Assembly (NCBI GenBank): GCA_900088475.1
Contig: FLMG01003167.1
Coordinates: 1-39,887 of the forward strand
Direction of reading: 5' to 3'
DNA from: Hyphochytrium catenoides
Taxonomy: Eukaryota > Sar > Hyphochytriomycetes > Hyphochytriales > Hyphochytriaceae
Length of the DNA: 39,887 nt
The notes below the pieces were generated by a model, which searched no databases, was not told the DNA's origin, and saw only the letters and a program-made list of their open reading frames with translations. Made by a program: the position numbers and the translations under genes. The first letter of the stretch is position 1, and every line of letters begins with the position of its first letter. Below, one piece after another: positions 20,761 through 39,887 of the stretch.

Positions 20761-21193
20761 ATGAAGTTCCGTCCGTGCATTGACCTGCACCAAGGAGTCG
20801 TGAAGCAGATCGTGGGGTCAACCCTCACAGAGAGCAGTGGCGACTTGCAGACCAACTTTGAGTCTCAGAAGTCGGCGAGGCACTATGCAGAGCTCTACCG
20901 TCATGATCATCTCAAGGGCGGACACGTCATCATGCTGGGAAAGAGTAAGGAGAATGAGGAGGCGGCGCTGGAGGCTGTGAGAGCGTATCCTGGAGGGCTG
21001 CAAGTAGGAGGTTAGACTCCACTCTTCTTCCAGGCCATCCTTCTAGCCTACGTCTCCAAGCTTTACCCTGGGTCCATGCCGGACTTGTCTATCTTCCTGG
21101 CTTCCTTGTTTCTTCTTCTTCCATTGGAGAAGGCATCTTCATTTCACTCTATCGGCTTCTATCTCCCTCTTTCTCTTTGTTTCCCTCTCTCTA

Positions 21194-21234
<41 letters not shown>

Positions 21235-22698
21235 GTGCCTAACTCTCATTCTTGCTGCTCATCCTGTCTTTCTGCCTTGCTGCCTCGGGCCGTATGGCTC
21301 TCTCTTTTTTACCTGACAATTTTTTTCTTCTTCCTTCAGGCGGCATCACTCCCGATAACGCATTCAAATACCTTGATGCTGGAGCCAGCCACGTGATCGT
21401 CACCTCGTATGTCTTTAAGGATGGAAAGCTAGACTTTGAACTGCTAGACGGTCTCTCGGTCGCCGTAGGGAAGGAGAAGCTGGTAGCTCACAATCAACGC
21501 TTTTCTTGGTTGTCCTTCACTTCCTTCAGTTTCCGTGGAACTTCCTCTGTCTTCGCTCCTCAGTCCCGTTCTCTCCTCTCCCTTATCCAAGCCCGACAAC
21601 ACGTTTTCTGACTCGTAAGACGCAGGTCCTGGACCTGAGCTGCAGAAAGAAAAAGGCAGAGGATGGGACAGAAGCCTACTTCGTGGTCACAGACAGATGG
21701 CAAAAGTTCACGGACCTTCAGATCACGTGAGAGCTTTCCTTATTTCTATCCTGACCTCTGTACACTGCAATGCTGTCTGCTTTGCTTCTCTGTTTATGTT
21801 GATCCCAAGGCGCTAAGCTTGTCACCGCTGGGGCTTAAAATCCTCTAACATCGGATATCTCCTATCCTCGCCCTTTTGTAGTGAGGAGACGCTGCAGCGC
21901 TTAGCGCACTACTGCATTGAGTTTCTAGTGCATGGCGTAGACGTAGAGGGCATGCGAGTCGGGATCCAGGTATTATAGTGCCAAGCTCCTGTTGGCCACA
22001 CCAACTTTATTTGTCACTGTGGCATGTCTCTCCTTAGCCATAGAGATACTCATGTTGTACATGGAACCCTGTGGATGTGATAGCCTAGCTCTCAGGTGAT
22101 TGTGTGGTCTCTGACTCTCAAAGCTTGCAGGAAGACTTAGTGGAACTGCTAGGTCGATACTCACCGATAAGGACGACTTACGCAGGCGGAGCCAACTCTA
22201 TGGTAAGCTACATCTTGCCGGGCGTTGCAACTATCAGTGTCAAAGCTGTTTGGATGATAGTTCTTATGTTCGGCACAATTTCCACAGTTGCAGAATGCTA
22301 TGGAAGAGTCGTTGTTTTCGTCTGCTGATTTTCTAGGTCACCTGTATAATCCTTTGAGACTATCACCTTTAATGACCTTATTTTTATCAGGATGATCTGG
22401 AGAGAGTTAAAAGGCTAGGCAATGGCAAGGTGAGCCTCACACGCTTCATATTTGACTTTGCTTGGTCTCCAAAGTCATTCCATGTCATGCTTCGTCCCCA
22501 TCTCTCACCGATCCTTTTCCTAAGCCCTTCCATGTCATCTCTTACCCTCCTGACGATCTGAAGGAGCTCTCCGGCCAAATTTCACTTATTTTCTCTCAGG
22601 TGGACCTGACTATCGGAAGTGCTCTCGACATCTTTGGCGGGGATGTCAAGTATGCAGATGTGGTTGAGTGGCAGAGAAAAGAGGAGGATCAAGCGTGA
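20761..22698 (+). CDS. HIS6: ProFAR isomerase, histidine biosynthesis (HIS6/HISN3)
   Basis: The enzyme isomerises ProFAR to PRFAR, the fourth step of histidine synthesis. Exons: 20761-21010, 21340-21482, 21626-21726, 21882-21969, 22131-22202, 22391-22429 and 22600-22698, with all phases consistent, giving 263 residues (yeast and plant enzymes about 261-265 without targeting peptide). It is a TIM barrel. The first strand has RPCIDLHQG with the likely catalytic Asp8; the second acidic residue is probably Asp134 in VLDLSCRKK, by analogy with bacterial HisA. Also visible are the eukaryotic signatures [60 protein letters not shown] and [14 protein letters not shown]. The start at 20761 fits the family N-terminus exactly. 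In plants the pathway is plastidial; the same frame stays open upstream to an ATG at 20302, but that extension is GA-rich low complexity and not a convincing transit peptide. Confidence 0.96.
21199..21231. repeat. (CT)n microsatellite in HIS6 intron 1
   Basis: A pure CT dinucleotide run within the first HIS6 intron, about 110 bases upstream of its acceptor. It may reinforce the polypyrimidine tract; it is also a likely length polymorphism. Confidence 0.9.
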
Positions 22699-23031: not shown

Positions 23032-26000
23032 CTAGCCTCTTGGCAAAATCTTTGTGCTGATCAGCTCTTGTGGTCCATGTCCTCCTGTTTTCACTGTGTT
23101 GTCGGCGGCTGAGTCCTCTGGTTCATACTCCACCTTATACTGCACACTAGACGATAGAGAAATAAAGCGTAGAGGAGAATATGCCAAGCCAACTAGGCTC
23201 TGAGCTGTGTAGAATAGGATGGTGAAGAGAGCGTCCAACGTCATACTCAAGGGAGAACGCTGAAGCAAAAGAAAGAAGACGTGTCGCTTCTCGTCTTCTC
23301 CAACATCAACTCCTGGGCGAGCTACCTCCAGAACCGTCGAAGGGGGACGAGGGTAACCGACTCCAGGGAGAATGAGGAAAAAGAGCCCGCAGTAGATTTC
23401 AACCATCAGTAACGCTGTCGTGTAGGGGACTAAGAGGCTTCTTCTCGAGACACCAAGCAGTAGGACCGTGTCCTGGAAGATGAGAGCTACGGAGACGGAA
23501 ATTCCAACGGAGACCATCAGCAGCCACCTGTGCGAGATAGACGAGGAGTGGGGGAAGACCATGGTTAGGGACGATATAACTTGCGCCACTACTATCAGAT
23601 ATCCAGGAATAATTATTAATGGGAAAGAGCGAGATCCCGTGAAAGAGGCCATTTTATGGGGGAAGAACCAAGGGGTCATTCCCGCAAAGTGTACCGGAAA
23701 ATGTTTGTTCGAGAGAGCACACTATTGAATGAGCTCAGTCGATGATGAGAGTAAACGGCGCAAAGACCACCGTGGGTCTCAGACGTCGGAAGAACAGACT
23801 GAGATATGTGTCAGCAAGTCATCAGAGGATGTCCAAGGGAGGAAGTAAAGGAGCAGCCGGCACTTCGTACCTCTCATCCCAATGCAGGAGCATTCCACTG
23901 ACGATAATGAACTCCACGAGAGAGAACATAACTATCCAGACGTCGAAGGAAGACAGGAGTCGAGCCAATAGCACTGGATGAGCTAGTGAGACGAGTAACA
24001 GATTTGTAAACAACGAGAGTGAGAAGAGCAGCAGGGAAGGTCCTGCTACTTGCTCTCTGTCAACGACTCCCGAGAGAATGAAACAATGCACGCAAAGGCA
24101 AGCGATTGTGGTGAGGATAAGGAAGGTCTCTTTGCCTGCCAGCCAGGGAGGCTCGGAAGAGCCTTGCTGCTTATTCACGGGAGACCCTATAATGTGCTCC
24201 TTTGCATCATCAGTCTGCAGTGGTGATGGTGTGATCTCGTCGCTTCGATGCGCAATAGAAGTTATGGTCGCTACTTTCTTGACTTCCTGTGCCATGTTGC
24301 TTCTCCCTTCCCGTACCCTGGCCTTCGCTCTAGCCCAGCGTTGTTTCATCCATCGAACGACAACTCTCCCAAGGTTATGATAGGCGTCCACACGAAACGG
24401 TTGAAGCTCTGCCTTAAGCTTATAAACCCTGCGGCCTCGGCGCCTAGGACGTTTATATAAAGTGACAAGATTAGTAAACCAATAACGGATGTGATGCAAC
24501 ATTGGCATCATCATGAGGTCAACAAAGATACCCGACCAGATGAGGAAGAATGATGGCCGCCGTGAACAGCTCAGACCGATTCAGGCGGCGCTGAGGAGGG
24601 GACGAGGAGGCACAGTGGCGAGCGAGAGGAATTAGAGTGATAAACAGAGCGAAAAGATCATCACTTACTGCTGCCGCCTAACCTCCTTCGCTCTCTTCGA
24701 CCCAATCTTCTCGGAGTCAACCGCCAGGCCAACCCTCCTTAAGCTCGTATTTTTCAGTGAATGACGGCGCGTCTGGGGCTCAACGCTTCTCCTATTCTCT
24801 GCTACAGCACCTAGGCGTATAGTCTCCTCCTTACTCATTCTCAGGACCTCTTTAGATGTTGAACATGACGCAGCAGCAACAGCAACCTTCGGTTCCTGAG
24901 CTTCTACACCTACTGCGGATTTGCTGACAACAACCACCGTCCCTAAGAGTTTGGCCCTCGTCCCAGTTATGTCTCCATTGCCTGCCACAACCCTCTTGGT
25001 GCTGTTGTCTCTATCATTCTTAGGTTCAGTGTTACACGGTATTGTTGCTTCAAGCTCCTCTTCCGTTCTAGTCCCTCGGTATGACTCTACTGGATCTTCT
25101 CGAACACTTGATGTCCCTGGTCCTCCTCCTATCTTTCTCTCGTCCCTCTGCTGTTCCATGCTCAGCGGCCACTTGATGTTTACAAAGTGCGACGTCCCTT
25201 TCTGAACACCTGCTGGTGGTCTAATCTTCTCTATACATTTCTTTAGCTGCTGACAATCCAGCAGCGCAATAACCAGAGTCGAGTCCGCTGCTATCAGCCA
25301 AGGCCTTACAGGGACGCGAAACAGAGTTATCTCTGTGGCCTCCATGAGTCCTTCATGGGGTGAGAGATACAGAATGTACGCTACCCTACATGATAAAGAC
25401 ATAGGGTTAGGGAGGGAGGAGTCATATGAGGACCCATGGCTATGGGACAGAGGGAAAGAGCTTGTGACTTCCACCACCAGCAACGCAAAGACATCGACGA
25501 TACAAGGCAGGGTGACGAAGCCAACTGGGAGAACAGGAAGAAGAGCGGTTATTAGAATGACGGGCACGTAGCTCATCATCTATGAAAAGATGCCAGACCA
25601 CCATCGGGTTTTACAAGGTTTTTTGAGGAGAGCTAGGATGTACCGCAGGAACAGGGCGATGGAAGTCGCAACTCCTATTAGAGCGATAACCGCGGTTGTC
25701 TTGTTAAGACCAATCGTAGGCATCGAGTCCATTAGCACCGGGTTCATAGCTCCCAGAAGGAAAGCCAGGACGTGAGCAACCGCACGGACGAGTTGTCCCT
25801 GGGAGCTAAAGTGATAACCGAAGAGGATCATACCTGGCAGGCTCTGGAACACAAAGAACCACACAGAGAACTGGCGGAACGTCCGTCGAAGTAGCCTGAG
25901 GTGGAGCTCGAGGACCAGTCCCATGCTATATATGGACATCCCTAGGGCCGTGGTATAGGATGCTAAAATTAGGCCGGGTCCCGCGTGCAGCTCTCTATGT

Positions 26001-26347
26001 TCCATGAGATAGAAAGCACCGATAAGAGCGAAGACGAGGCTGAGCCCGATAGTAAGGCCATAGAAAGGAGAATGAAGCATTCGATGGTACACTCGATGAG
26101 CTTTGCCTTGGAAGGCGATTTTGCTGACCGTCTGTCGAGCATCTAAACTTTCAGGAACATACTCAGGCGCCGGCTTGATCGTCCAGTACCTAACAGGTAA
26201 TATTAGAGACGGAACTGGTGGTCCTGGAAGGACTGCTGACGAGGAAGAGGGTCGTTGAAGGCTACTATGCGGTGTCGAAACATCATTGGCAGCAGCAGTA
26301 AGAGGAGAAGGTGGTGCAGAGACATCGCCCGATGGTCTCTCTGCCAT
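23032..26347 (-). CDS. Paralogue A: unknown ~12-segment membrane protein (4 exons)
   Basis: I do not recognise this family; B, C and D are its neighbours. Minus-strand exons: 26347-25644, 25385-24669, 24443-23871 and 23527-23032, joined by three phase-2 introns, giving 829 residues. It is the longest and most divergent member. A Ser/Pro-rich tail of about 50 residues precedes the family entry motif (YWTIKPAPEYVPESLDAR). Five membrane segments follow in exon 1. Exon 2 holds VPVRPWLIAADS at the sixth segment and then a long polar linker of about 190 residues. Exon 3 restarts with RRVYKLKAEL, a basic region and segments 7-9 (with LLSSFDVW). Exon 4 has segments 10-12, the motif FQDTVLL, an in-membrane Glu (ALLMVEIYCG) and SPLSMTLDALFT, ending in an acidic tail. 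A polytopic membrane protein is certain; transport is only inferred. Confidence 0.82.
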
Positions 26348-27122
26348 AGCTTGGTTGCCTTAAAGCTGAGCAGGGAGTAGGAGGCAGGGCTGCTAAATCA
26401 CATACACCGTGCAGCCTATCGAACAAAAGGTCATTGCACCGCCCAAGACAAGAAGATTGCCCAGCCATAAGCAGCTGTTATGGCGCTTGCTCGTCTCACG
26501 CGGTACCCAGACGGCATTGGTCACCACTCATCAAGCTCTCCTTATGCGTAATGCCGTTTTCTGGCTACATCTGCTGAGACCAGCAGTGCCGTCCACGGCA
26601 GGAGGCAGGAATGAGCAGGGAGAAGGGGTAAACAGCTGCTGGGTGTACCTGTAGGGAGGAGGAGGAGGAGCTTGAGGTGCGGCGATTGGCCTCCAATAGC
26701 AGGTGAGAGGAGGAGGAGAATGAAGAGAACAGAGAGAGAAACTCAGGTGGAAAGGCAAACAACGCTGATGTAACGCTCATCACTCCTGGGGTAGCACTCG
26801 GGTGGTATCTNNNNNNNNNNNNNNNNNNNNNNNNNNNNNNNNNNNNNNNNNNNNNNNNNNNNNNNNNNNNNNNNNNNNNNNNNNNNNNNNNNNNNNNNNN
26901 NNNNNNNNNNNNNNNNNNNNNNNNNNNNNNNNNNNNNNNNNNNNNNTTGTACCGTTGTTTTAGAAACTTTAGTGATGACCACCTTTACTTGACAATGCCT
27001 GAGGGCAGACCAACATAATAATAGAGGAAGATAGATATGTAAGGTCATCTTCATCTTGGGCAAGGATGAATTGATGATGTACATAGCTCAACGCTTATCG
27101 TGGGAACATCTCTTTCACGTAT
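26348..27122. other. Intergenic region with an assembly gap
   Basis: This lies between the start of A and the 3' end of the ankyrin gene. Bases 26811-26946 are N, 136 in all. The readable parts hold no convincing exon, although purine-rich GGAGGAGG tracts flank the gap at about 26650-26720. The promoter of A is probably in 26348-26810. Confidence 0.6.
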
Positions 27123-28463
27123 CTAATTGCTGATTGAGACGCCAGCCGTCTCATTCCTCGGCCCCTCCAGGGACCACCATGTCTCTGCCAGATGGGAGAC
27201 GAAGCAAGGATGCAGTGCCAGCTCATCAAGAACACGCTTGAATAAGAGGCCCAAGTAGCTGGTCTTCAGCTGTGACAGTGTGTCACGAAGAGCTATCATC
27301 TGCTGGATCGATTGACAGGCGGCCAGATGATGACCTGGGATGATCCCGTCCGTGGTGGCTCCGGCACGGACCAGAACCTTCGCGATCTCGATATGTTGAT
27401 ACACAGCGGCCACATATAGCGCGGAGAGCCCTGCGTTGTCTCTCTTGTTCACTTCAACGCCCTTCTCATGACACAAAAGTCTCTTGATAAAGCCTAGACC
27501 CTCGGCGTAATGGGCTGTCACGATAAGAATGGAGCCTCCGCTAGGGACTGTCACATTAGGATCTGCTCCGTGCTCTAACAGTCGCTCTGCCACTTGCCAC
27601 TGGCCAAATTTGACAGCCGTATAAAGCGCAGGATAGGGCTGGTTGCCGTTGACATCTGCATTGTGCGCAAGCAGTGCCTCTATCACCTGCCAATTTCCAT
27701 AGCGTGCAGCATAATTAAGAGGAGGAGTCCCATCAAATGCCTCTTCAGAAGAAATAATAGGAGAATGGGTTGCACCGTTTTCTATTAGAAGGACCGCGAT
27801 GTCACTGTGGCCAGCCACGATAGCTTCGCATAGAGTTTCTCGGATCACTCTGGCTCTTATAGAGGCCAAGGGCTTCCCCACACGATCATGAGAAAGCCGT
27901 TGTGTCGAGGCCTGTTCCTCCTCCGTCCCTTTGTCTCCATCATCGTCCCCAAGATGGAGTAGTAGCTTCTGCACAAGCTTGCGCTCTTCACGTACGAGAG
28001 AATCCCAGATCGAGATCTGTAAGCTCCGACAACAAGTCCATTGGACCTTGGTCGGGCAAGTCGATTGCATTTCAAAGGAAGAGAGGAGGGACCGACAGAC
28101 TCCGTGGCAGACGAAGAGCACATGGCGTTGGTCCTCCGCTACCAAACTACTCTCTTTTCTCATTTCCAGCGGCCATCTGGTCTGGCCTCTCACCTCATCC
28201 GACTCTATGCGACCTGTAACTCCATCAACGAGAGAAGAAGGAATTTGGATCTCTACCAAGAGAGGGCCAGAGTCTTTCTCTTCCCCAGAGGACCTCTTTT
28301 TGCCGAAAGCTGTAAGGACCCAGCTGTTCTCCCCACTTATCATGTCTGTCGTAGCAGCATGTCCTGCTCCGATCATCTCGCCAGTAGGTGCAACAAAAGA
28401 AGAGGAGCCTTGGCTTCCTCTTTGTTGATCTAAGCTTTCTTTCAGCGATGATTGGGCACTCAT
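27123..28463 (-). CDS. Ankyrin-repeat protein, intronless
   Basis: A single open frame of 446 residues. The start at 28463 is the first ATG (MSAQSSLKESLDQQ); the open frame continues upstream to 28535 but without an ATG. The N-terminal half is Ser/Glu-rich and lacks a recognisable domain. Ankyrin repeats occupy roughly residues 210-395: landmarks are AGHSDIAVLLIENGA, TPPLNYAARYGNWQVIEALL, ALYTAVKFGQWQVAERLLEH with GADPN, HYAEGLGFIKRLL and LSALYVAAVYQHIEIAKVLV with RAGA, so about five repeats. The C-terminal tail is helical (LGLLFKRVLDELALHPCF). Such repeats bind other proteins; the partner cannot be told. Absence of introns is unusual beside its 4- to 34-exon neighbours and may point to retroposition or a young gene. 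It sits between paralogues A and B, in the same direction as A. Confidence 0.85.
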   Translation of the reverse strand: MSAQSSLKESLDQQRGSQGSSSFVAPTGEMIGAGHAATTDMISGENSWVLTAFGKKRSSGEEKDSGPLLVEIQIPSSLVDGVTGRIESDEVRGQTRWPLEMRKESSLVAEDQRHVLFVCHGVCRSLLSSFEMQSTCPTKVQWTCCRSLQISIWDSLVREERKLVQKLLLHLGDDDGDKGTEEEQASTQRLSHDRVGKPLASIRARVIRETLCEAIVAGHSDIAVLLIENGATHSPIISSEEAFDGTPPLNYAARYGNWQVIEALLAHNADVNGNQPYPALYTAVKFGQWQVAERLLEHGADPNVTVPSGGSILIVTAHYAEGLGFIKRLLCHEKGVEVNKRDNAGLSALYVAAVYQHIEIAKVLVRAGATTDGIIPGHHLAACQSIQQMIALRDTLSQLKTSYLGLLFKRVLDELALHPCFVSHLAETWWSLEGPRNETAGVSISN

Positions 28464-28569
28464 GTCTCCTGAGGAGGCATAGAGATTGCACACAACAGAT
28501 AAAATCTGCCTCTGACGGCTACAAGATGGATGCAAACCTCAAGAGAAGTTCTAGCTGAGTTGATAAAAG

Positions 28570-28812
28570 ATGGTCTGGAGGCGACTCTCTGCAACAGCAG
28601 AAGACGACGCTATGACTTACTACTTCCACACAGCAGGAGAGCAAGGAAGAGTAGTCTTCCCACACTTTGGAGGGCTGTTAGATCTGACAGGTTGTCAGGT
28701 AGTAACGGTGGAACAGAATTTTCTTCATGGCGGCACCGTCGGACCAGAAGGGAAACAGCGGCTCCTTAAGCAAGTGAAACTAAGCCATGGGAAGAGGGCG
28801 GGGAGTAAATAA
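28570..28812 (+). CDS. Possible small 80-residue protein
   Basis: An open frame of 80 codons begins at ATG 28570, with another in-frame ATG at 28612, and ends at TAA 28810-28812. It lies divergently, about 107 bases from the ankyrin gene start. The part from residue 15 (MTYYFHTAGEQGRVVF) has a balanced, protein-like composition and ends with a basic tail. I know no homologue and it may be a chance frame or a 5' exon. Confidence 0.2.
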   Translation: MVWRRLSATAEDDAMTYYFHTAGEQGRVVFPHFGGLLDLTGCQVVTVEQNFLHGGTVGPEGKQRLLKQVKLSHGKRAGSK

Positions 28813-30819
28813 CTCTGTCTCTTCGTACCCTGGCGCCGTCGTCTCTTGCTGGTGGTCTGCTTGTGGCAGTGACAGCTTTTGAAGGGAAGCACAGCTCCAA
28901 CAACATTTCATAATATGCTGGGACTACCAAGGAATAAGGACGCTGTCAGACGGTGCTGCTTGTTATTATAGATTCTCTCTGTCATCGATCATCGTCGAAA
29001 GAGAAAGAGAAAAAGATCTTGCTCTATGATGATAAGCAATAGAGACAACAGCCATCTTGCTGTGCTCAGTTACAAAGTTATAGCTTGCTTCTCTTCCTTT
29101 ATTTTATCGTTCTTTATGCCCTCTCTCTTTTACTTCTTGTTGTTGAGAGGAGGAGGGGAAGGAACGACTACGACTGCTACTGCTTCCTGCCTTTTTCAAC
29201 TCCTTGCAATTGTAAGTTCGCCAGCTGTGGCAGCAATAAGGAACCGCAGCAGCAGCAGAAGAGAGATAGAAGGACACCACCTTCACGCACTCTGCTGCCT
29301 GCGAGGGGAACGTCCGGAGGGAAGAGAGAGAAGAAGTTATTAGAGACCCTGCAGTAAGCTTGGGAGCAAAAAGGAGCATCATGACAACAGCAGCAGGGGA
29401 GGAGGGAGAAGAGAATAATAAGGAAAGGAGGGAAGTTCCGACGACGATGAGCCGCCCCATCAGCAAGGACAGTGAGGGCTGATCACAATGGCACAGAAGG
29501 AAGAGGAGGACGCAGCCGCCTTCGGACAGCGAGGTTCTTGGCTATGATCATCAGCAAGGACAGTTAGGGCTGATCACAATGGCACAGGAGGAAGAGAGGA
29601 CGCAGCCGCCTTCGGACAGCGAGGTTCTTGGCTATGATCATCAGCAAGGACAGTTAGGGCTGATCACAATGACACAGGAGGAAGAGGACGCAGCCGCCTT
29701 CGGACAGCGAGGTTCTTGGCTATGATAACAAGTCGCTAGCTATGGTTGGTGGGAGGAAGAGCGAAGCAGGAGGAGAGAGAGAGAGGAGGAACAAACACGC
29801 CCCCTGCTCCTAGGCCTACGGCATCCTTCCATGAACTAACACGTCTAACAACAACAACAACTGGTGCTTGTGGGAACAAGAAACAAGAGCCGTGGCGTCT
29901 GTGTTCCCCACGTATCAGAGTTTAAATTCCCCACGTGTCCCTTCCACCTTTCTCGCTTTGTCCGTTACAAGAAAGAAGCTATCTCTTCCAGGGCCTCCCC
30001 AGGCTATTGTGACAGGCTTATTGCCGCCTCTTCCTTCCTTTCTGCTAGGAAGCAAGGAGATGAGGTGAGCCTAACACTGACTAGGCTGTAGGGTGACAGC
30101 AGGCTGCGCAGTCGTCAGGGAAGAAGAAAGGAGGAGGTCAAGGGAAGAGGTGGAGCAGCTTCAGAGTGGAGGAGGTGAGAAGCGACGATACATAAGGTGC
30201 TAAGCCTTCCCACTCTCTACTGCGCCGTTGGTGGTGGGCACGCATGAAGCACACTCCATCCATTAGTAGGGTGAAGAATGAGGGGAACACTGGGGAAGGC
30301 AGCCAGGGAAAGTCAAGCAAAGAGAACAGCAAGTGGACTTCTTTACCGATAGGAGTCGGTGCTGACACTGATAAGGTGAAGTCTTTCAGCTACTGTTGGT
30401 GCTGGTAGCGCTTAATAGGAGGAAACAAGTTGATGTAGATGGGTGCATCAGGTTATCGACAAATTGAAGCGCTGGCCGCGTCTACTTCCTCTGACCGGAG
30501 CTGAAGTTAGAGCTCTTATAGATGTCTCCGAAGCCTTTTGACGTACCGCCTCAAAGGGTGGTGCGAAAGTCTAGCTGTTATCTGCTCTGGATGACTAGAC
30601 GCAGATGACGCTTCCACACCTAAATAACCGTTAGCTTCACAGCCCGGTGAGCCACCGTCCCGTCGGCTTTGTAGGAGGTGACCCACGGAGATGCCAATGC
30701 CTGTTGTTGTGCCTCTGCTTCTCATGGGCTGATGGTGCCAGACACCCCGAATGGATGGTAGCTATGGTCGAATCTTTGTGCTGCACCTATTCATCATCCA
30801 CTACCGATAGTACCTAAAA
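28813..30819. other. Intergenic region upstream of paralogue B
   Basis: No supported gene over about 2 kb. It contains purine-rich stretches, a ~90-base minisatellite at 29458-29726 and several short open frames with low-complexity Ser or Arg runs. The promoter of B should lie near the right end. Confidence 0.45.
29458..29726. repeat. Minisatellite, three copies of about 90 bases
   Basis: Three head-to-tail copies start at 29458, 29549 and 29639, each opening CATCAGCAAGGACAG and ending GAGGTTCTTGGCTATGAT. Copies are about 91, 90 and 88 bases and nearly identical; differences are a TGA/TTA change, single-base changes and small indels in the GGAAGAG run. Each holds the palindrome TGATCA. Confidence 0.92.
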
Positions 30820-33363
30820 ATGACGCAATATTGGACGGTGAAGCCTGTCCCGGGATATCTGCCAGATATCCTGGACCCTCGGGAGTCCGTCGGTTCCCGC
30901 ATTCTTCCTAGCTGGGCCTTTAGCTTCTATACCAAGGTCCTCCGAAGGTCACGCCTCTACACTTTATTTATGTGCTCAACCCTGTTCGCAGGGATTATCA
31001 GCGCGTATATGATTTTTATTGACAGTGGATCGGCGCACTCTACGGAGAAAACAGCGACAGGTGTCATCACACTTATCGCCACTTGCTGCTATATTTTAGG
31101 ACAGGTTCCAGAGATTCAACTGCGGCTTCTCCGGAGATTATTGACACATTTTGAAGCCTGGTTCCTCATTATTCAGGCACTCATCCCCGCCATACTTCTG
31201 GGCTACGCCAATGCTTCTCGGGGTCATCATATCCGCGCCGCAGCCTTCGTCGCTGCGATTCTTAGTCAGCTATACGGAATCTTAGTGGTGGATCTACGTC
31301 CCCAGATTGAGGCTTCCAAAGTGTCTGTTGCCGTTGCCATGGTACTTGCCCTAGAAGCTATAGTGGCTCTTGTTTGGTAAGATCGTCTTCATTTCATATA
31401 ATCGTCAGCAGCAAGAGGAATGTGCCTTTTTACTTACTTGGTTATCTGTCTCTCTCTCTCCTATAACATCACCTCGGTCCTTTCCTGTCTGCCTCTCAAC
31501 CTGTTGGCTTCAGCTTACCCTTCAGAGTGCATGTGCGTTGTCTCTTGATGTAAGTTACCTGATTCCGCTTATTCTTTTGAAGAGTTTGGTTCATCTACCT
31601 TCTTAGTTCTCCAGCCATCTCCGAATATCCTCGGGTCAGCTGACACCATCTTCTTACCTTGTCTCTGTAGGATTGGTGGCAAGCTCTACTTAGACACTTA
31701 TGACGGCTTGAGAGAAACAGAGATGCAACTGTTTCAAGTCCCTATCCGTCCTTGGCTGATAGCCGCAGATTCTCTGTTCATCTCCGCTGCTCTTCATGCA
31801 CAACAGCTGACAAAGTATGTAGTTATGGTGCGGAGGTTCCGCACAGGGCAAGGATCCACTCCGTTAACTTTTGCAATGACAAGATGGCCTCTCATGATAG
31901 AGGAAGATCTTGCTACTTGGCATGACGAGGTGACAAACTTCAAACCTAGGGCCGCGGAAAGGACGCAGCAGAATGCCCAATGTCCCAAGTCAAGTGATAA
32001 AGAGAAAGAGTCACCACAGCATATACAAGTGGCGAGCCTTACTCTCCCGGGCCCGTTTCCGCCAGATCAAAGAAGCAGGTATTATGCTCTTCGGAAGAAT
32101 GATGAACGTAGGCAATCAGGCGTCCGTTCGTAAGGCTTTGCTGAGGGCCGGCGGATAGAGTAACGTCATGGGGTCTTTCATGCAAGTCTTGAGTTTTGCA
32201 AGTGGGCAAGCTCCCTAGCATGAGTAAAGACATTAGGAATGTCCGAAATGGCTGAGCGCTTAACCTCTGTCCTCTATAATGCAGGATACGCCGTGTGAAA
32301 GGCACCCGAAAGATCTATAGAATCCGACCGAAGCAGCCGGTGCTGGTGGGTCTCGATAGCTACGATGACATGCTAAGGCTGATCATAGAGAAGTTACAGC
32401 TATGGCGAAAGCGAGGCTCCTTCTCCTCAAGCAAACTGAGAAGCCAAAGAACTTGCCCCGCGTCTGAAGGAAATGACGAAGGTCATCGAAGAAGAGATGG
32501 CCAGAAGCAAGTGGCTGCCTGCTGGTGGGCATTTTGTGTGAGCAGAGAGCATTACCTCTCCTTCCTTGCTTTCTTTGGAGTCATTATGCAAGGCGTCGCC
32601 TTAGCCCTTGGTGGCCCTACCTTATGGCTAGCAGTAGGCCTTCTTTTAAGCTGCACGGGAAATCTACTGCTGATTCTTCGCGCTCATCCTCGGCTTGTCT
32701 GGAGACTTGTCACCTCGTTTGACTTCGTGGTGATCTTTCTCTCTTCAATGGAGTTCGTGACCTTCACCTGTATCTTGCTGGAATGGGATTTGAGGTAAGA
32801 TAAATCTTCCTTCCTTTCACATAAACCTCCTCGACTTGCCCGACTACAAGAATTCTCTTCACTGCCTCTCTCAAGCATCCATCTACTACATCGCTTAACC
32901 CCTAAGTACCTCCTTTGCCCACCCCATTTACAGGACTCTTGCCATGTTCTCCGTGCTCTTCACGGTCATAGCTTCTCTTACCATTCAGGATGCAGTCATC
33001 ATCAACCCGGCATGGCGGCGTCAACGCCTTTTGATCCTCCACTTGTTAGGGTTATTAGCGGTGGAGATCATTTGCGGTCTATCGCTAGTCTTTCTCACTC
33101 CAAAGAAGGCCTCCTCCTCCTCCTTGCCTTCGCTAACTGGGACAAAGACCTTAGAGGATATTATATATCGTTCTCCACTCAGTATGGGGTTAGACGCCTT
33201 AGCTACTGTCATCCTCTACACTGTTCGAAGCCTTTATAATGCGCTTCGGTCACCTCGTCGGCTGGTGGCAGTTCACTCAGATATTGAGTATGAGTTTGAC
33301 TACATCGAAGATCGGAAAGGAACCTCAAGAGTCCCAAACGCTGAAGACCAAGGCGGTAGCTGA
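30820..33363 (+). CDS. Paralogue B: unknown ~12-segment membrane protein (4 exons)
   Basis: Exons 30820-31376, 31671-32078, 32285-32794 and 32934-33363, all introns phase 2, give 634 residues. It is the shortest complete member and shows the two-half layout best. First half: entry motif YWTVKPVPGYLPDILDPR (4-21); segments near 47-67, 79-97, 111-130, 138-159 and 168-188; LRLLRRLLTHFEAW before segment 3; Asp158; then IRPWLIAADS with Asp219 in segment 6. A polar linker (about 235-400) contains TRWPLMIEE and the second entry motif KIYRIRP (331-337). Second half: segments near 412-431, 434-454, 467-487, 493-513, 524-546 and 575-592; HPRLVWRLVTSFDF; Asp511 (TIQDAVII); Glu536; SPLSMGLDAL with Asp579. 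The ATG at 30820 directly precedes the entry motif. No signal peptide. Membrane location is clear; transport of some solute or ion is inference from the 6+6 layout and buried acids. Confidence 0.85.
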
Positions 33364-35220
33364 CATCTTTCCACTATAAAGCAGGCAGCAGGGTGCGGGA
33401 TATGCTCCACATAATGGAACCCTATAAGTCTTTTGTCACTGGCTTGCATCATAAAGCGACTCTTATCAGATATATATCTATAGCACTGCGTTGACGTCCA
33501 ACGTTTTTTCTGCAGAAGCTTCCTCCAGCACAACCATCATAAGTGCGCGGCTGCATCTCTTATTTTCTGGCGCATACTAAGGCGAGAGGTGCGGAAGAGA
33601 AACAGAAGCAGCGTCAACTGCCCATCACTGTGCTCCACAAAGAAAGAAGGGAGGCTGGCGTTATTCCTGTCTCTTGTTGTCAGAATTTGGATAGTCAACA
33701 ATAGTCACCGGGAGCCCTCGGTGTTGCTAGGATACTCATCACGCAAGAGGACGTCACAAGCGCAGCGGAGGGCTGCTAAGGTAGTCTGTGTAGCGGAGTG
33801 GATATCTTAAAGGGGAACCTTCATACCCAACTTCTGATCCTGCCCTAAGTTCTATCTGCCTCCAACAAATTCACTTCTATATCAACGACTACTCCTCATT
33901 GCCTCCTCATAGTGCCGAGATGCAAGATGAGGACCACCTGGAGCTTGAACATGGCAGCGACGACAATGGCTGGTTGCACCAGACAATAGGGCCAATGAAT
34001 AGGGAATCTGTGTCTTCGTCTTCAAGTACTAATAATGCAAAGCGCTGATGGTATGCAGTCAACCTCTCATTGTACCTAAAGCGCGCACGAAGATCTGTGG
34101 AGCTGCTCAAGCTGCAGCAGAGCTTCGTCCTCAGTCTTCAAGGTAGGCCCTTCCGCATCAGCATCAAGCTCAAGAAGAAGAAAGATGAGCGCTCTTCTAC
34201 ATTTCAAATATCTTTGTGATAACTGCAGGAAACCCCCTGGTTGGGTGGGCGAAGATAGGCCACCATCTCTGCGCAATAGATAATGAATGGCTTACAGCGC
34301 CGATGGGGGTGGGTAGGTCGATGAGGACGAGATAGATTGTCCCCCCCTCTGACGTGTAGACAAACCTTTAACCCCTCCAGCTACATCAGTAATTTAACGA
34401 GAAAGGTTCTTAATACGAATCATTGTAGGGGATGCTGATCAAGGATAGCACCCTTGTCCGTTACTGCATGAGAGGGCTGCAGCAGGTCCAGGAAGTGCGC
34501 CAGCAGTGCCGCTGCTGCGGAGAGCATTAGGATGAGCCTGGCGGCTCGGGTCTTGAGACACTTATCTTCTTTGTCTGTTCCCTCAGGATAATCCTCTAAC
34601 TTTTCCTCCCTCTCTCATGGTACTATGTGCCACTTCTCCAGCAGCGGTGATGACGCCCCCTGTTCTCACCGGCGAGGGAGGATGCTCATACATTGGGCAA
34701 ACAATCTGGCCGCAGAAGGCAAGGCGATCGTTGGATTGCGCTGACCCCATCTCCGCCCTCCGACCGACGAATGATTCTCCTTCTTTCCCCTCTCTCTTCT
34801 TCAGTGGTGAACTGCTGCTGATAGGTCAGCCGCCAATGACGGTGTACCCGCGGATGCTAGGTTACTAGAGGCTGCTAATGTTCTACCCCACGGAAAGGAC
34901 AAAGCTACTCGTAGTACCATCTGAACAATGACGCCGCCGTGGACGGAATAGGTCAGCCGTCCGTCATCAAATGCTGCCATAACATCAAGCAGTAGTGAGA
35001 CACGAGCTCATGATGGGCGAAGTTAGGGAAACTGCCATTTATCGCATTATTGTGAGATGACAATAACTACATTGCGGATGCTTGCCAAACTTCCAGGAGC
35101 CATGATGATGGTGATGAGATGAATGGTGAACACGGTTCTACTCCGCCGGTTGGACAGTAAAAAGGAGTAAAAGTGCGGTCAAGGAGTTAAAGGACCGGCT
35201 TGTGATAGTGTGACCAGGCG
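33364..35220. other. Intergenic region between B and C
   Basis: About 1.86 kb without a convincing gene. No remnant of the A-D family is apparent on either strand. Short open frames of up to 83 codons have no recognisable features. The 3' region of B and the promoter of C must lie here. Confidence 0.45.
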
Positions 35221-37696
35221 ATGGAGGATAACATTAAGGCATCAATGGGGACCACACCCGATCCTGGCCCATTTAAATCGTTGGATTGTGGGAGATTCTG
35301 GGTTTTGAAGCCCGTTCCTAATTATCTTCCGGATGTGATAGATCCTCGCTGCACGACTGGCGCCACCTTGCTGCCAGAAGCCATGATGACATTCTATGCA
35401 AAGTCATTGAAGAAGAATAGACTGTATCACCTGGTGACAGGCTTGGCTCTCGCCATCGGGTTACTCACCTGCCCATTTACTGTCTTGGACACAGAGGGTG
35501 CCGTAACCACAGTGTCTACAGCCCTAGGCACAGTCACGGCGACTTCAGTAATCTTCCTTACAATGTGTCAGGTACCAGACCTCCAGTTGCAGCTTCTTCA
35601 AAAGCTATTCTCGCAGTTTGAGGGATGGTACCTGGCGATGGAGTCTCTGCCTCCTTTGCTACTCTTTTCTATCTCAAGCAGTCGCAGGGGCCACTATGCC
35701 CGTGCCGCTGCTTTCTCTGCCTGCTGCATCTGTGTCATCTCTAGCATTTTTGCCATGGACTTACTACCGCAGTTGGTGCGCTCCAAGGTCATAATCTGCT
35801 TTGTGATACAGGGAAGTGTGGTCTGCTCACTCGCAATGCTCTGGTAAGAAGAATACCTTCCACTACCTTATGACCTGATCTGATGAGTATTGGGAGAAGA
35901 GAACCACATTCATTGTTGCTTATGCCCTGGGCCGTCACTTCTTCATCTTCAAACGTGCCAATCTCTGTTTGACCACACTGTTTACTCTTTGACTGCCAGT
36001 ATACAGCTATCCCTCTGTCTTCCGGATCATGGAACCTCGGTTGCCAACTTCAGCAATCCAGCCTTCCTTTTTCTTATGTATCGCAGTCTGACCGTGTCCC
36101 CTCTAACCCACCATCGTGTGCTGTAGGGTGGCTGGTCTACTCTATACTGATGCCTATGAAGGCATGGCGGTGACCCAGATCAATGTTTTCAACGTTTCCA
36201 TCCATCCGTGGCTCATCGCAGCAGATTCACTGGTCATCTTAGCCTTACTTTTGATGCGGCACCTAAAGCGGTATATCAACATGTTGCGTAAGCGTGAGGC
36301 AAGAGGAGGAGCGCTGCGATTCAATATTGTGACTTGGCCCTTGATGGTAGAGCTGGCACAGGAGAGGCCGCCAACCAAACTATTGGTAACTCCTCTATCT
36401 CAGAAGGATGTCGTCAGTAGTAAGGAAGATATCGGGAAATGTCGGGCGGTGGTAAAGAGCACTGAATTGGCCTCCGAGGAGGGTGTCACATCCGGAGGCC
36501 TGGAAGGGCAGCAATCAGCTTCCACCAGGTACGTAATAGCAAAGACTACAATGGAAGAGGGGCAAAGCCCTGTTAAAGCCCTTTTAATGCAGGTCTGAGA
36601 GTAAAAAGAGCAGTCGAAAGCTCTACAAGCTTCATCCTGTGCGAAGCAAGCCTGTCTTCCTTGACACTTTCGACGATATCCTAGGCTACCTGCATCGAAA
36701 GAGTTCCTTCTTTCAGGCCTGGAAGTGCCGATGGCCGACCTCAACTGACGGAGATGTCGGCATGAAGAATGAACAGGCAAATGAGCGACAAAGAGACGAA
36801 GGCGCTGAAGCTCGGCGCATGGAGCCGTTCTCCTTCCTTAACAACAACCAGTCATGTCCCATCGATATGCCCTTGAAGAAGCCCTTATTAGCAGGGCTTG
36901 AGCCAATGCTCTCTGCCATAGCGGTGATGGGGATCGCTCTTCAAGGGTTTACCGTTGCCTTCCAAACGTCAGAAGCCTGGATGGCGCTTTTCTTCTCCAT
37001 CACTTTTGTCGCTGACGTTTTACTCATGTCCCGATCGCACCCAAAACTTCTGCCAAAGCTAGTTCGTTCCTTCGACTTTATTGTCGTTGCTGCCTCTCTC
37101 TTGGAGTTCTTCATCTTCAGCGGCCTCTTGATGGGCTGGGATTATAGGTAGGTATATGTCCGTTTCTAGCTTGTTATTCCATTCTTCTGCCGCAACCTCT
37201 GATGATGCTTTGCAACTTCAAATCACTGCTTGTGGTCAGGGCTTTAATGGTCGCATCGCTTACAACCACCCTGGCATCATCAGTGATTATGCAGGACACT
37301 GTCCTAGTTACTCCTCCGACGCGAAGGAGACGCTGGCTGGTCCTTCATATGGTGGCCCTTCTCCTGATAGAGATCTCTTATGGCTGGTATATTATATTCC
37401 GCGCCTCCGCCAGCATCAAGCCCTGGCTGGAAGGTCCTCTCGCTAGTAGTATCGGGCGTTCTCCTCTCAACCTTGCGCTGGACGCCTTGGTCACTCTCAC
37501 GATTTACACAGTGAGAAGCCTTTATAATGCTGCAAAATCGCCCCACCTTTTGGTGGCCATAGTGTCGGATATCCAGTATGAGATTGTAAGCCTGGGCCGA
37601 CAGCCAACAGGGTGTCGGCAGCCAAAGGAGGAAGACAAAAACCTGATTAAACAAGCTGTAAGCAAGAAGCTCGCACCACTAGAGGAAGAAGAATGA
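35221..37696 (+). CDS. Paralogue C: unknown ~12-segment membrane protein (4 exons)
   Basis: Exons 35221-35843, 36127-36528, 36593-37147 and 37240-37696, all introns phase 2, give 678 residues. The ATG at 35221 leaves a polar tail of about 22 residues before the family entry motif (FWVLKPVPNYLPDVIDPR). First half: LLQKLFSQFEGW before segment 3, the ISSSRRGHYARAAAF loop, AMDLLPQL after segment 4, and SIHPWLIAADS at segment 6. The linker carries TWPLMVEL and the second entry motif KLYKLHP with FLDTFDDIL. Second half: HPKLLPKLVRSFDF, MQDTVLVTPP, the in-membrane Glu in LLLIEISYGW, and SPLNLALDALVT, ending in an acidic EEEE tail. Introns are only 64-283 bases. It follows B in the same direction and is the closest relative of D, for example in FSQFEGW and DLLPQ. 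Confidence 0.85.
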
Positions 37697-38790
37697 TCAA
37701 GCATCGGTCTGGCCAATAAAAGAGGAAGAAAGGTGAACACCCATTGCATTGCCGTCCCTAATCTATAAATTCACGCTTGCCTTGGGACTTCGCACTTAAA
37801 GCTCATCATGTTCATACAATGTAATTCTTCCTTATGAATAGAATAGAAGTGAAGAAGGAGCGCGAGATTGCGCCCTCTACTTTTGGCCCCCATAAAGGCT
37901 CATATCAGAGCTGCCTCAATCATAAGAAAGAAGAAAGAACAGAGTCGACAGATCTGATTATGCAGGAACTTTCGCGGTGGGAAGAACTAGGGGCAGGTAT
38001 TAAGAGGCGCCCAATTATGTGTAGCAGACCAGCATAGGGCAAACACATTGCAGCCCCTCTTCTTTCGCCCCAAGACGGACAGTAATAGTCCACCTATCTT
38101 CTGCTGCGACTGGACTCACCAGCTGCAGAACAACAGGGTATCCTGAGCCATACTTCTGTCGTCTAGCGACAGAGGAACAGCCGATAGGAACAGGCATCCG
38201 ATTCCTATGGTGCAGACAACTGCATGGGATGTTCTAGTACTTACATTAAGAGCATGGGGAATGAGCTGCGGACGTCGAACAGAGTTGCCGGGCCAGCAAG
38301 GATGGGAAGGTCCTTCGCCAGGCACTCGGTTCTGGGTCATGAGTCACCTGATCTCCTTCCATCGTTCTATCAGGCTGCCATCGTGGCTCCCTCTTGTGAT
38401 CCTCTCTCCCCCCTTTTCCTCCTCTGCTCTTTCCTCTTTCCCTTTTCCTCTCCTCTTGTCTCTTTCCTCTCCTCTCTCCTCTCCTCTTTCCTCATCTCTG
38501 TCTCTTCTCGTCTCCCTTCTTCTTCCAAGCTCTCTGCTCCTGCCTCCTCCCTCCTCTGTAGCATTAGGTTGGGCCCATAAGTCTATCGTCATCTGGTTGA
38601 CGGGAGCTCTTTCCTTTCGCTCTCACTGTCCCGCTGCTGACAGATAAAGGATCAACATACACGTATCCGGCATTTATACCACACAGAATTCCATATTCCG
38701 GATCTCGAGCTCAGTTATCTAGGATAAATGATTTGGAGTGGCTGTGGGCCGTTACACGTTGGAACCCTCTCCTTTCCCTCTTCCAAAGCT
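37697..38790. other. Convergent region between C and D, with a CT-rich tract
   Basis: It separates the stop codons of C and D. Bases about 38384-38560 are CT-rich low-complexity sequence (TCCTCTCC-type repeats). I looked on the minus strand for the missing second half of D and found no membrane-segment exons, SPL-x(3)-DAL motif or QD-T/A motif. Confidence 0.55.
38384..38560. repeat. CT-rich low-complexity tract
   Basis: Imperfect CTCTTTCCTCTCCT-like repeats; on the minus strand they would read as Arg/Glu-rich low complexity. Probably non-coding. Confidence 0.8.
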
Positions 38791-39887
38791 CTAACCATCA
38801 CTTTCTTTCTCCTTCCTCGTCTTGCGCCCTTCTCTCTCCCGCGCCCATAGGTCGTCGTACGCGTCCAGTACCAGGGGTTCTCCATGGCTTATCGGCTTTA
38901 GCTTGAATATCTTTCTTCTAAGGGTTGGCCGTGTGTAGCTCCTGACGTCATGAGCGAACGGGCTGCTTAGATATGCCAGAAGTTGGGATAATAGAAGGAC
39001 AAAGGACTCAAAATCCAACCCAATCAGCACATAATACCTGGAGTCTGCAACCGAAACCGTCGTGGTCATATCTTTCCTTCTGATTGCCTGGCCATGGTCT
39101 CCAGACACTTTGTGGAGGGCAGCTTCCTTGCCATTACTGCTGTCATTTGCTGCCGCCGCCGAAGCAGACCCGGTGTATGGTACGTAATAACAACGTCCTT
39201 CTTTAGTTCCCCACGCTGTCTGTCCTCCTATCTCCTCAATCATGAGTGGCCATTTCACGACGTTAAACCGCAGCGCACCGCCTTGCACTGCACGTTTGTG
39301 GGCCATGACGATGTACCTCTTGAAATGCCTCATAAGGATAATGGACATGACAAGCATACAATCTGCAGCTACCAGCCAGGGCCGAATAGGCACTCGCAGC
39401 AGAGTGAACTCGGTGTTCTCTATGCCCTCAAAAGCTCCCATATAAAATAAGCTTGCGACCCTGGAGATAGATGACGAGTTATAAGCCTGTGTAGCCTATT
39501 CGCTCACTCCTCGACGATGGTTTAGCAAAGCATATGTAGGACAAAGCAAAGGGAGGGATATCATCCTGACCCCCAAAAGGCAGCTAAGCGGGGAAAAGAC
39601 TGCAAGAAGAACAGCCTATCTTACCATAAAAGTCCCAAGACACAAAAGAAAGAGCCCTGTATGACCATGAAGACGAAGACCTTGGAGGACAGCATTTGCG
39701 GAAGCAGGTCTGCTGCCAACGCCCCGGATATTCCCGCAAGGCAAAAGACCATATACGAAGCTGCCCGTGCATGGTTTCCCCTGGAAATATTCCAATAGAC
39801 AAAGAGAAGCATCGGAGGGAGAGACTCTAACACCAGGAACCACCCTTCGAACTGCGAAAACATCTTGTGAAGAAGATGCATGTGAAG
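38791..39887 (-). CDS. Paralogue D: half-length member of the A-C family, partial at window edge
   Basis: Minus-strand exons: 39887-39625 (continues off the window), 39460-39038 and 38941-38791. The visible 88 codons of the first exon match C closely (LLHKMFSQFEGWFLVLESLP, GNHARAA, AADLLPQM), so segments 1-2 should lie outside the window. Exon 2 has VPIRPWLVAADC at the sixth segment, FKRYIVMAHKRAVQGGALRF, the conserved KWPLMIEE, and a polar linker. Exon 3 begins like the second half of its relatives (RRKIFKLKPIS, LVLDAYDDLW) and then turns into a short charged tail that stops at 38791, where A-C go on to six more membrane segments. Introns are phase 2 as in the family. The second intron (39037-38942, 96 bases) is open in frame. 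Either a half-length protein or a copy that lost its 3' part. Confidence 0.75.

Follow-up and report, generated by a model that had tools for sequence, protein, structure and literature searches.

The final 17 kb of the window, by which we mean the whole stretch of 39,887 nucleotides analysed here (contig FLMG01003167.1 of Hyphochytrium catenoides, C545 in our labelling), raise the question of whether four clustered open frames that resemble one another and nothing familiar are real genes and, if so, what kind of membrane protein they encode. The original prediction, made from the letters of the DNA, was of four strongly diverged paralogues (A to D) belonging to no known family. We found that A–D are almost certainly members of a real orphan membrane-protein family. 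The best match to them outside the window has an E value of 5.8e-33, which excludes chance resemblance, and an origin as chance open reading frames was rejected. The relevant features of the window are as follows.

20761-22698, + strand: HIS6-type histidine-pathway isomerase gene in seven exons, with stramenopiles and plants among its named matches
26347-23032, - strand: paralogue A, complete spliced model of 829 aa, four exons (26347-25644, 25385-24669, 24443-23871, 23527-23032)
27123-28538, - strand: ankyrin-repeat frame between A and B, a single open frame of 471 codons (Ank_2, E 1.2e-19)
30820-33363, + strand: paralogue B, complete spliced model of 634 aa, four exons (30820-31376, 31671-32078, 32285-32794, 32934-33363)
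35221-37696, + strand: paralogue C, complete spliced model of 678 aa, four exons (35221-35843, 36127-36528, 36593-37147, 37240-37696)
36197-36232, + strand: motif at the predicted start of transmembrane segment 6 (TM6) of C, SIHPWLIAADSL, its Asp kept in 19/19 exon-2 copies examined
37457-37531, + strand: RSPLNLALD-type motif and predicted TM12 of C, putative pseudo-symmetric partner of the TM6 motif, with Asp in 19/19 exon-4 copies examined
39887-38791, - strand: paralogue D, incomplete, exon 1 (39887-39625) cut by the window end, exon 2 39460-39038, exon 3 38941-38791, 278 aa seen

There are also 136 N bases at 26811-26946, upstream of A, and a 90-base tandem repeat in three copies with 96% matches at 29458-29726.

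Both internal motifs by which the four genes had been recognised are present in all of them: the RPWLIAAD type reads RPWLIAAD in A and B, HPWLIAAD in C and RPWLVAAD in D, and the WPL type reads WPLSME in A, WPLMIE in B and D and WPLMVE in C. The N-terminal entry motif was found in A (RYWTIKPAPEYVP), B (QYWTVKPVPGYLP) and C (RFWVLKPVPNYLP), the corresponding part of D lying beyond the window. All visible introns, two in D and three in each of the other genes, are GT-AG and in phase 2. The shared intron positions that had been predicted were found for introns 1 and 3, each of which falls at one alignment column in the three complete genes. Across the A–D alignment 31 columns are invariant, of which 28 are in exons 1 and 2, the regions best covered by D. 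As for the claim of four members in 17 kb, A, B and C are complete, but D is not. Its 5′ side is truncated by the window end, its frame terminates in exon 3 before the second-half segments and comparison with C gave no exon-4 match; D is without the second half of the protein. Four copies is also too few for the family as a whole.

Searching the assembly (42.5 Mb, 1105 contigs) with gene C gave 72 exon-by-exon matches, its own exons counted, and the exon profiles of A–C sorted the genomic matches into at least 21 loci on 8 contigs. The largest cluster is on contig C131 (9 loci), followed by the window (4), C1065 (2), C104 (2) and C137, C702, C1019 and C159 (1 each). Using C104a, the most divergent member, as query added no more than a 54-residue fragment on C119. 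Two of the 21 loci are contig-edge pieces (on C1065 and C131) which are possibly one gene, giving perhaps 20. The piece at the start of C1065 is a cut exon 1 (L047) and that at the start of C131 consists of exons 3-4 (L039); these two contigs may adjoin.

Four-exon open models could be built for 15/21 loci, namely A–C and twelve outside the window; in four of the latter the model starts where the profile match does, and an in-frame ATG follows within a few codons. Six loci fall short of a four-exon model: D, the two edge pieces, C104b, which lies near a contig end and has exons 2-4, C159a, whose exon 1 was left unmodelled, and C702a, whose exon 1 is split in two. All 15 models agree in the alignment column of intron 1 and in that of intron 3, and intron 2 falls inside a variable linker; phase 2 was imposed on the site listing for the twelve outside models, where column agreement alone counts as evidence. 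Together with the four exons and these fixed introns, the family is defined by the RPWLIAAD-type and RSPLSLALD-type motifs, the Asp of which was found in 19/19 exon-2 and 19/19 exon-4 copies, respectively. Residue counts are of copies passing E 1e-3 per exon and leave out those of the 21 loci without the exon concerned. The Pro of the WPL-type motif was likewise found in 19/19, and a Gln-Asp in TM10 has Asp in 18/19 and Glu in one.

The strong divergence within a common layout that had been described for the window extends to the whole family, with pairwise identities among the 15 four-exon members of 19-47%, except for C131f and C131h at 81%. This recent pair (dN 0.108, dS 0.337, dN/dS 0.32) is the single unsaturated one and is under purifying selection; C131i and C1065a gave a dN/dS of 0.19 with a dS of 2.3, near saturation, and two further pairs tried were saturated. 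On a tree of the 15 members, in which 4/12 inner branches are well supported, C groups with C131b (94/91), B is sister to that pair (92/94) and A branches apart. The well-supported branches taken alone are compatible with a single origin of the window copies, but the tree does not unite A, B and C. The family is genome-wide, and a purely local expansion in the window is not supported. The many divergent and partly clustered copies, the single exon plan and the recent duplicate resemble, in a general way, the expanded multigene membrane families which occur in protists. A difference is that this family has no sequence match in Pfam, NCBIfam, the PDB or a set of 5.8 billion proteins.

This last point rests on several searches. 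Neither C as a single query (E 0.01) nor a profile of nine of the 15 members (E 0.1) matched anything among the 5.8 billion proteins, with both searches scoring solely the 7994 candidates which shared most 5-residue words, a step that remote kin may escape. As a positive control the neighbouring HIS6 protein had 7998 matches with an E value of 1e-30 or below, including those of Heterosigma, Ectocarpus, Nannochloropsis and Phytophthora, and these named eukaryotes indicate that the database covers eukaryotes. The top identity among the best 120 of the 7998 matches was 68%; there is thus no near relative of this organism among those listed. The family, which may or may not extend to near kin, is unseen in the sampled lineages. 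No Pfam family scored above its cut-off when 3 and then 9 members were scanned, NCBIfam gave chance-level matches alone (9 members) and PDB profile matches were at chance level (E 0.29 or worse). Of 36 pattern matches in viral contigs, from a collection which may omit records very near this genome, 0 were confirmed. A confident full-length profile match to a characterised family, which the original prediction had named as evidence against itself, was found in none of Pfam, NCBIfam and the PDB. The reading of A–D as an unknown family is supported for the collections searched. In a literature search, judged from listings, the motif strings appeared in no paper and no relevant paper on a comparable family was found.

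Some sub-threshold matches were seen in one member each and were taken as chance: in Pfam YscD-like (B, E 0.011), cytochrome b561 (0.073), NikA-like (0.18), PsbN (0.19) and DUF6732 (0.66), and in NCBIfam MmpA (E 0.036). A tree with 121 rows did not place the HIS6 protein used as control. The light-harvesting family Chloroa_b-bind had no match in the whole genome, from which the organism is probably not photosynthetic.

We examined the predicted membrane anatomy of the proteins, for which about twelve segments had been claimed. The mean hydropathy of 15 members has twelve clear peaks arranged as two sets of six and a weak thirteenth after TM12, and the proteins very probably have about twelve transmembrane helices. 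In C the peaks are at residues 78, 111, 142, 172, 200 and 244 and at 455, 480, 511, 536, 573 and 610, with TM1-5 encoded by exon 1, TM6 by exon 2, TM7-9 by exon 3 and TM10-12 by exon 4. The halves are joined by a linker of 175 alignment columns, rich in Lys and Arg. The N-terminus and loops 2-3, 6-7, 8-9 and 10-11 carry a surplus of basic residues, whereas loops 1-2, 5-6, 7-8, 9-10 and 11-12 carry one of acidic residues, a mostly alternating positive-inside pattern which fits a topology, predicted from hydropathy and charge, with both ends cytosolic. The exceptions to this model are outer loop 3-4, which is basic, loop 4-5, which is weakly basic to nearly neutral, and the inner C-terminal tail, which is net acidic. 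An AlphaFold model of exon 1 alone, from four alignment rows, was uninformative (mean pLDDT 46.6).

This anatomy bears on whether A–D could belong to an expanded family of chemosensory or other receptors, which would bind outside ligands and signal through the long, variable and basic cytosolic loop. In favour of this are the many clustered copies, diverged to 19-47% identity save for one recent duplicate pair, and the cytosolic linker, which is the part most variable in length and sequence, with predicted outer loops 1-2 and 11-12 variable too. However, the common receptors have seven spans, whereas here there are twelve, perhaps thirteen, hydrophobic peaks and a 6+6 repeat. Predicted outer loop 5-6 and the start of TM6 are also among the best conserved regions, which argues against ligand diversification there; this argument is a soft one, as outer loops 1-2 and 11-12 vary. 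A receptor role is on these grounds unlikely.

The repeat itself was spotted by eye before any test, from the likeness of loop 2-3 (consensus PElHl-LLrrLF-QFE) to loop 8-9 (RaHP-LL-kLlrSFDF) and of RPWLIAADS to RSPLSLALD. When loop 2-3 was slid along the second half its best site was loop 8-9 (offset 369, z 5.6 against 3.2 for the runner-up), and the best site of the RPWLIAADS segment was RSPLSLALD (offset 367, z 5.1 against 3.6). These were 2/4 first-half segments to hit the expected partner; for the N-terminal entry motif the expected partner came third, and the TM4-loop-TM5 segment scored best at 602-624, its expected site at 540-563 being third. Among the 36 helix pairs the top two are TM3-TM9 and TM6-TM12, and by its diagonal sum the in-order pairing comes ninth among 720 orders, with 4/6 in-order pairs unremarkable (TM1-7 0.41, TM2-8 1.39, TM4-10 0.84, TM5-11 -0.33). 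Profile-profile alignment of the halves with hhalign gave a score of 25.1, which 2/300 column shuffles reached; the program's own probability was just 2-3%. From these comparisons, the protein probably arose long ago when a six-helix unit was duplicated in tandem to give TM1-6 and TM7-12.

A duplicated unit of this kind invites comparison with the major facilitator superfamily (MFS; MFS_1, PF07690), whose members have twelve helices as 6+6, both ends cytosolic, a long central loop and paired loops 2-3 and 8-9. The family is predicted to share this gross plan, with parallel 6+6 duplication, ends inside, a long central cytosolic loop and conserved loops 2-3 and 8-9, and it could be a very divergent branch of the MFS or a similar known 12-helix superfamily that is invisible to sequence methods. 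The profile evidence runs against this. With thresholds of E 1 in Pfam (3, then 9 members) and 0.1 in NCBIfam (9 members) no MFS family was matched, but Pfam MFS_1 does match above its cut-off elsewhere in this genome. Aligned by hhalign with seven MFS proteins of this genome, the family gave a probability of 1.0 (0.8 and 0.1 for its halves), whereas one MFS subset aligned with another gave 98.1. The MFS loop 2-3 motif is of the type G-x3-D-R-x-G-R-R, and by eye it is absent from the family, whose loop has the other consensus given above. We know of no counterpart of the family's Pro-Trp and Asp motif at TM6 or of its TM12 partner. MFS membership is thus not supported by profile and a hidden MFS-type ancestry seems improbable; the family may all the same function in the manner of an MFS carrier.

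We tentatively favour, at somewhat short of even odds, a duplicated protein with a function like that of a secondary carrier. Such a carrier would be expected to have two related six-helix halves, conserved acidic residues where the last helix of each half begins on the outer side, and conserved cytosolic loops in mirrored positions, as predicted here. The two six-helix bundles would face each other, with both termini cytosolic and the halves joined by the long, variable, basic cytosolic loop. The TM6 Asp, on the outer side where that helix begins, and its mirror residue at the beginning of TM12 would lie in the transport path and bind an ion or substrate, conserved loops 2-3 and 8-9 would form a paired hinge or gate, and individual copies would vary in their substrate or setting. 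The role is inferred from anatomy, and the conserved Asp residues could be structural.

A further explanation is a membrane enzyme or scramblase-like protein, working for example on lipids or sterols. It draws on two tandem cytochrome P450 genes which lie between family members on C131, at about 26991-31540 (L041, L042). In eukaryotes, however, the proximity of genes counts for little, and in the window 0/5 frames scanned is a P450, the identified neighbours being the HIS6 and ankyrin genes; nor did any Pfam enzyme family exceed its cut-off in the nine members scanned. We consider this explanation very unlikely.

What is newly described here is a protein family with two-times-six segments, mostly alternating charge, a putative internal duplication and an Asp at both TM6 and TM12. 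That it forms a new superfamily of secondary carriers, one with a distinct fold made of a tandemly duplicated six-helix unit with an Asp-bearing gate in each half (RPWLIAAD, RSPLSLALD), and that it then multiplied to some twenty copies within a single, little-sampled lineage of eukaryotes, is a bolder proposal to which we give a low probability. The presence of about twenty open, nameless genes with one exon plan points to a function on which this organism relies. If the 6+6 repeat and the paired aspartates hold, the family would be a compact test case for the origin of a carrier by duplication, one in which the candidate residues for testing are already named.
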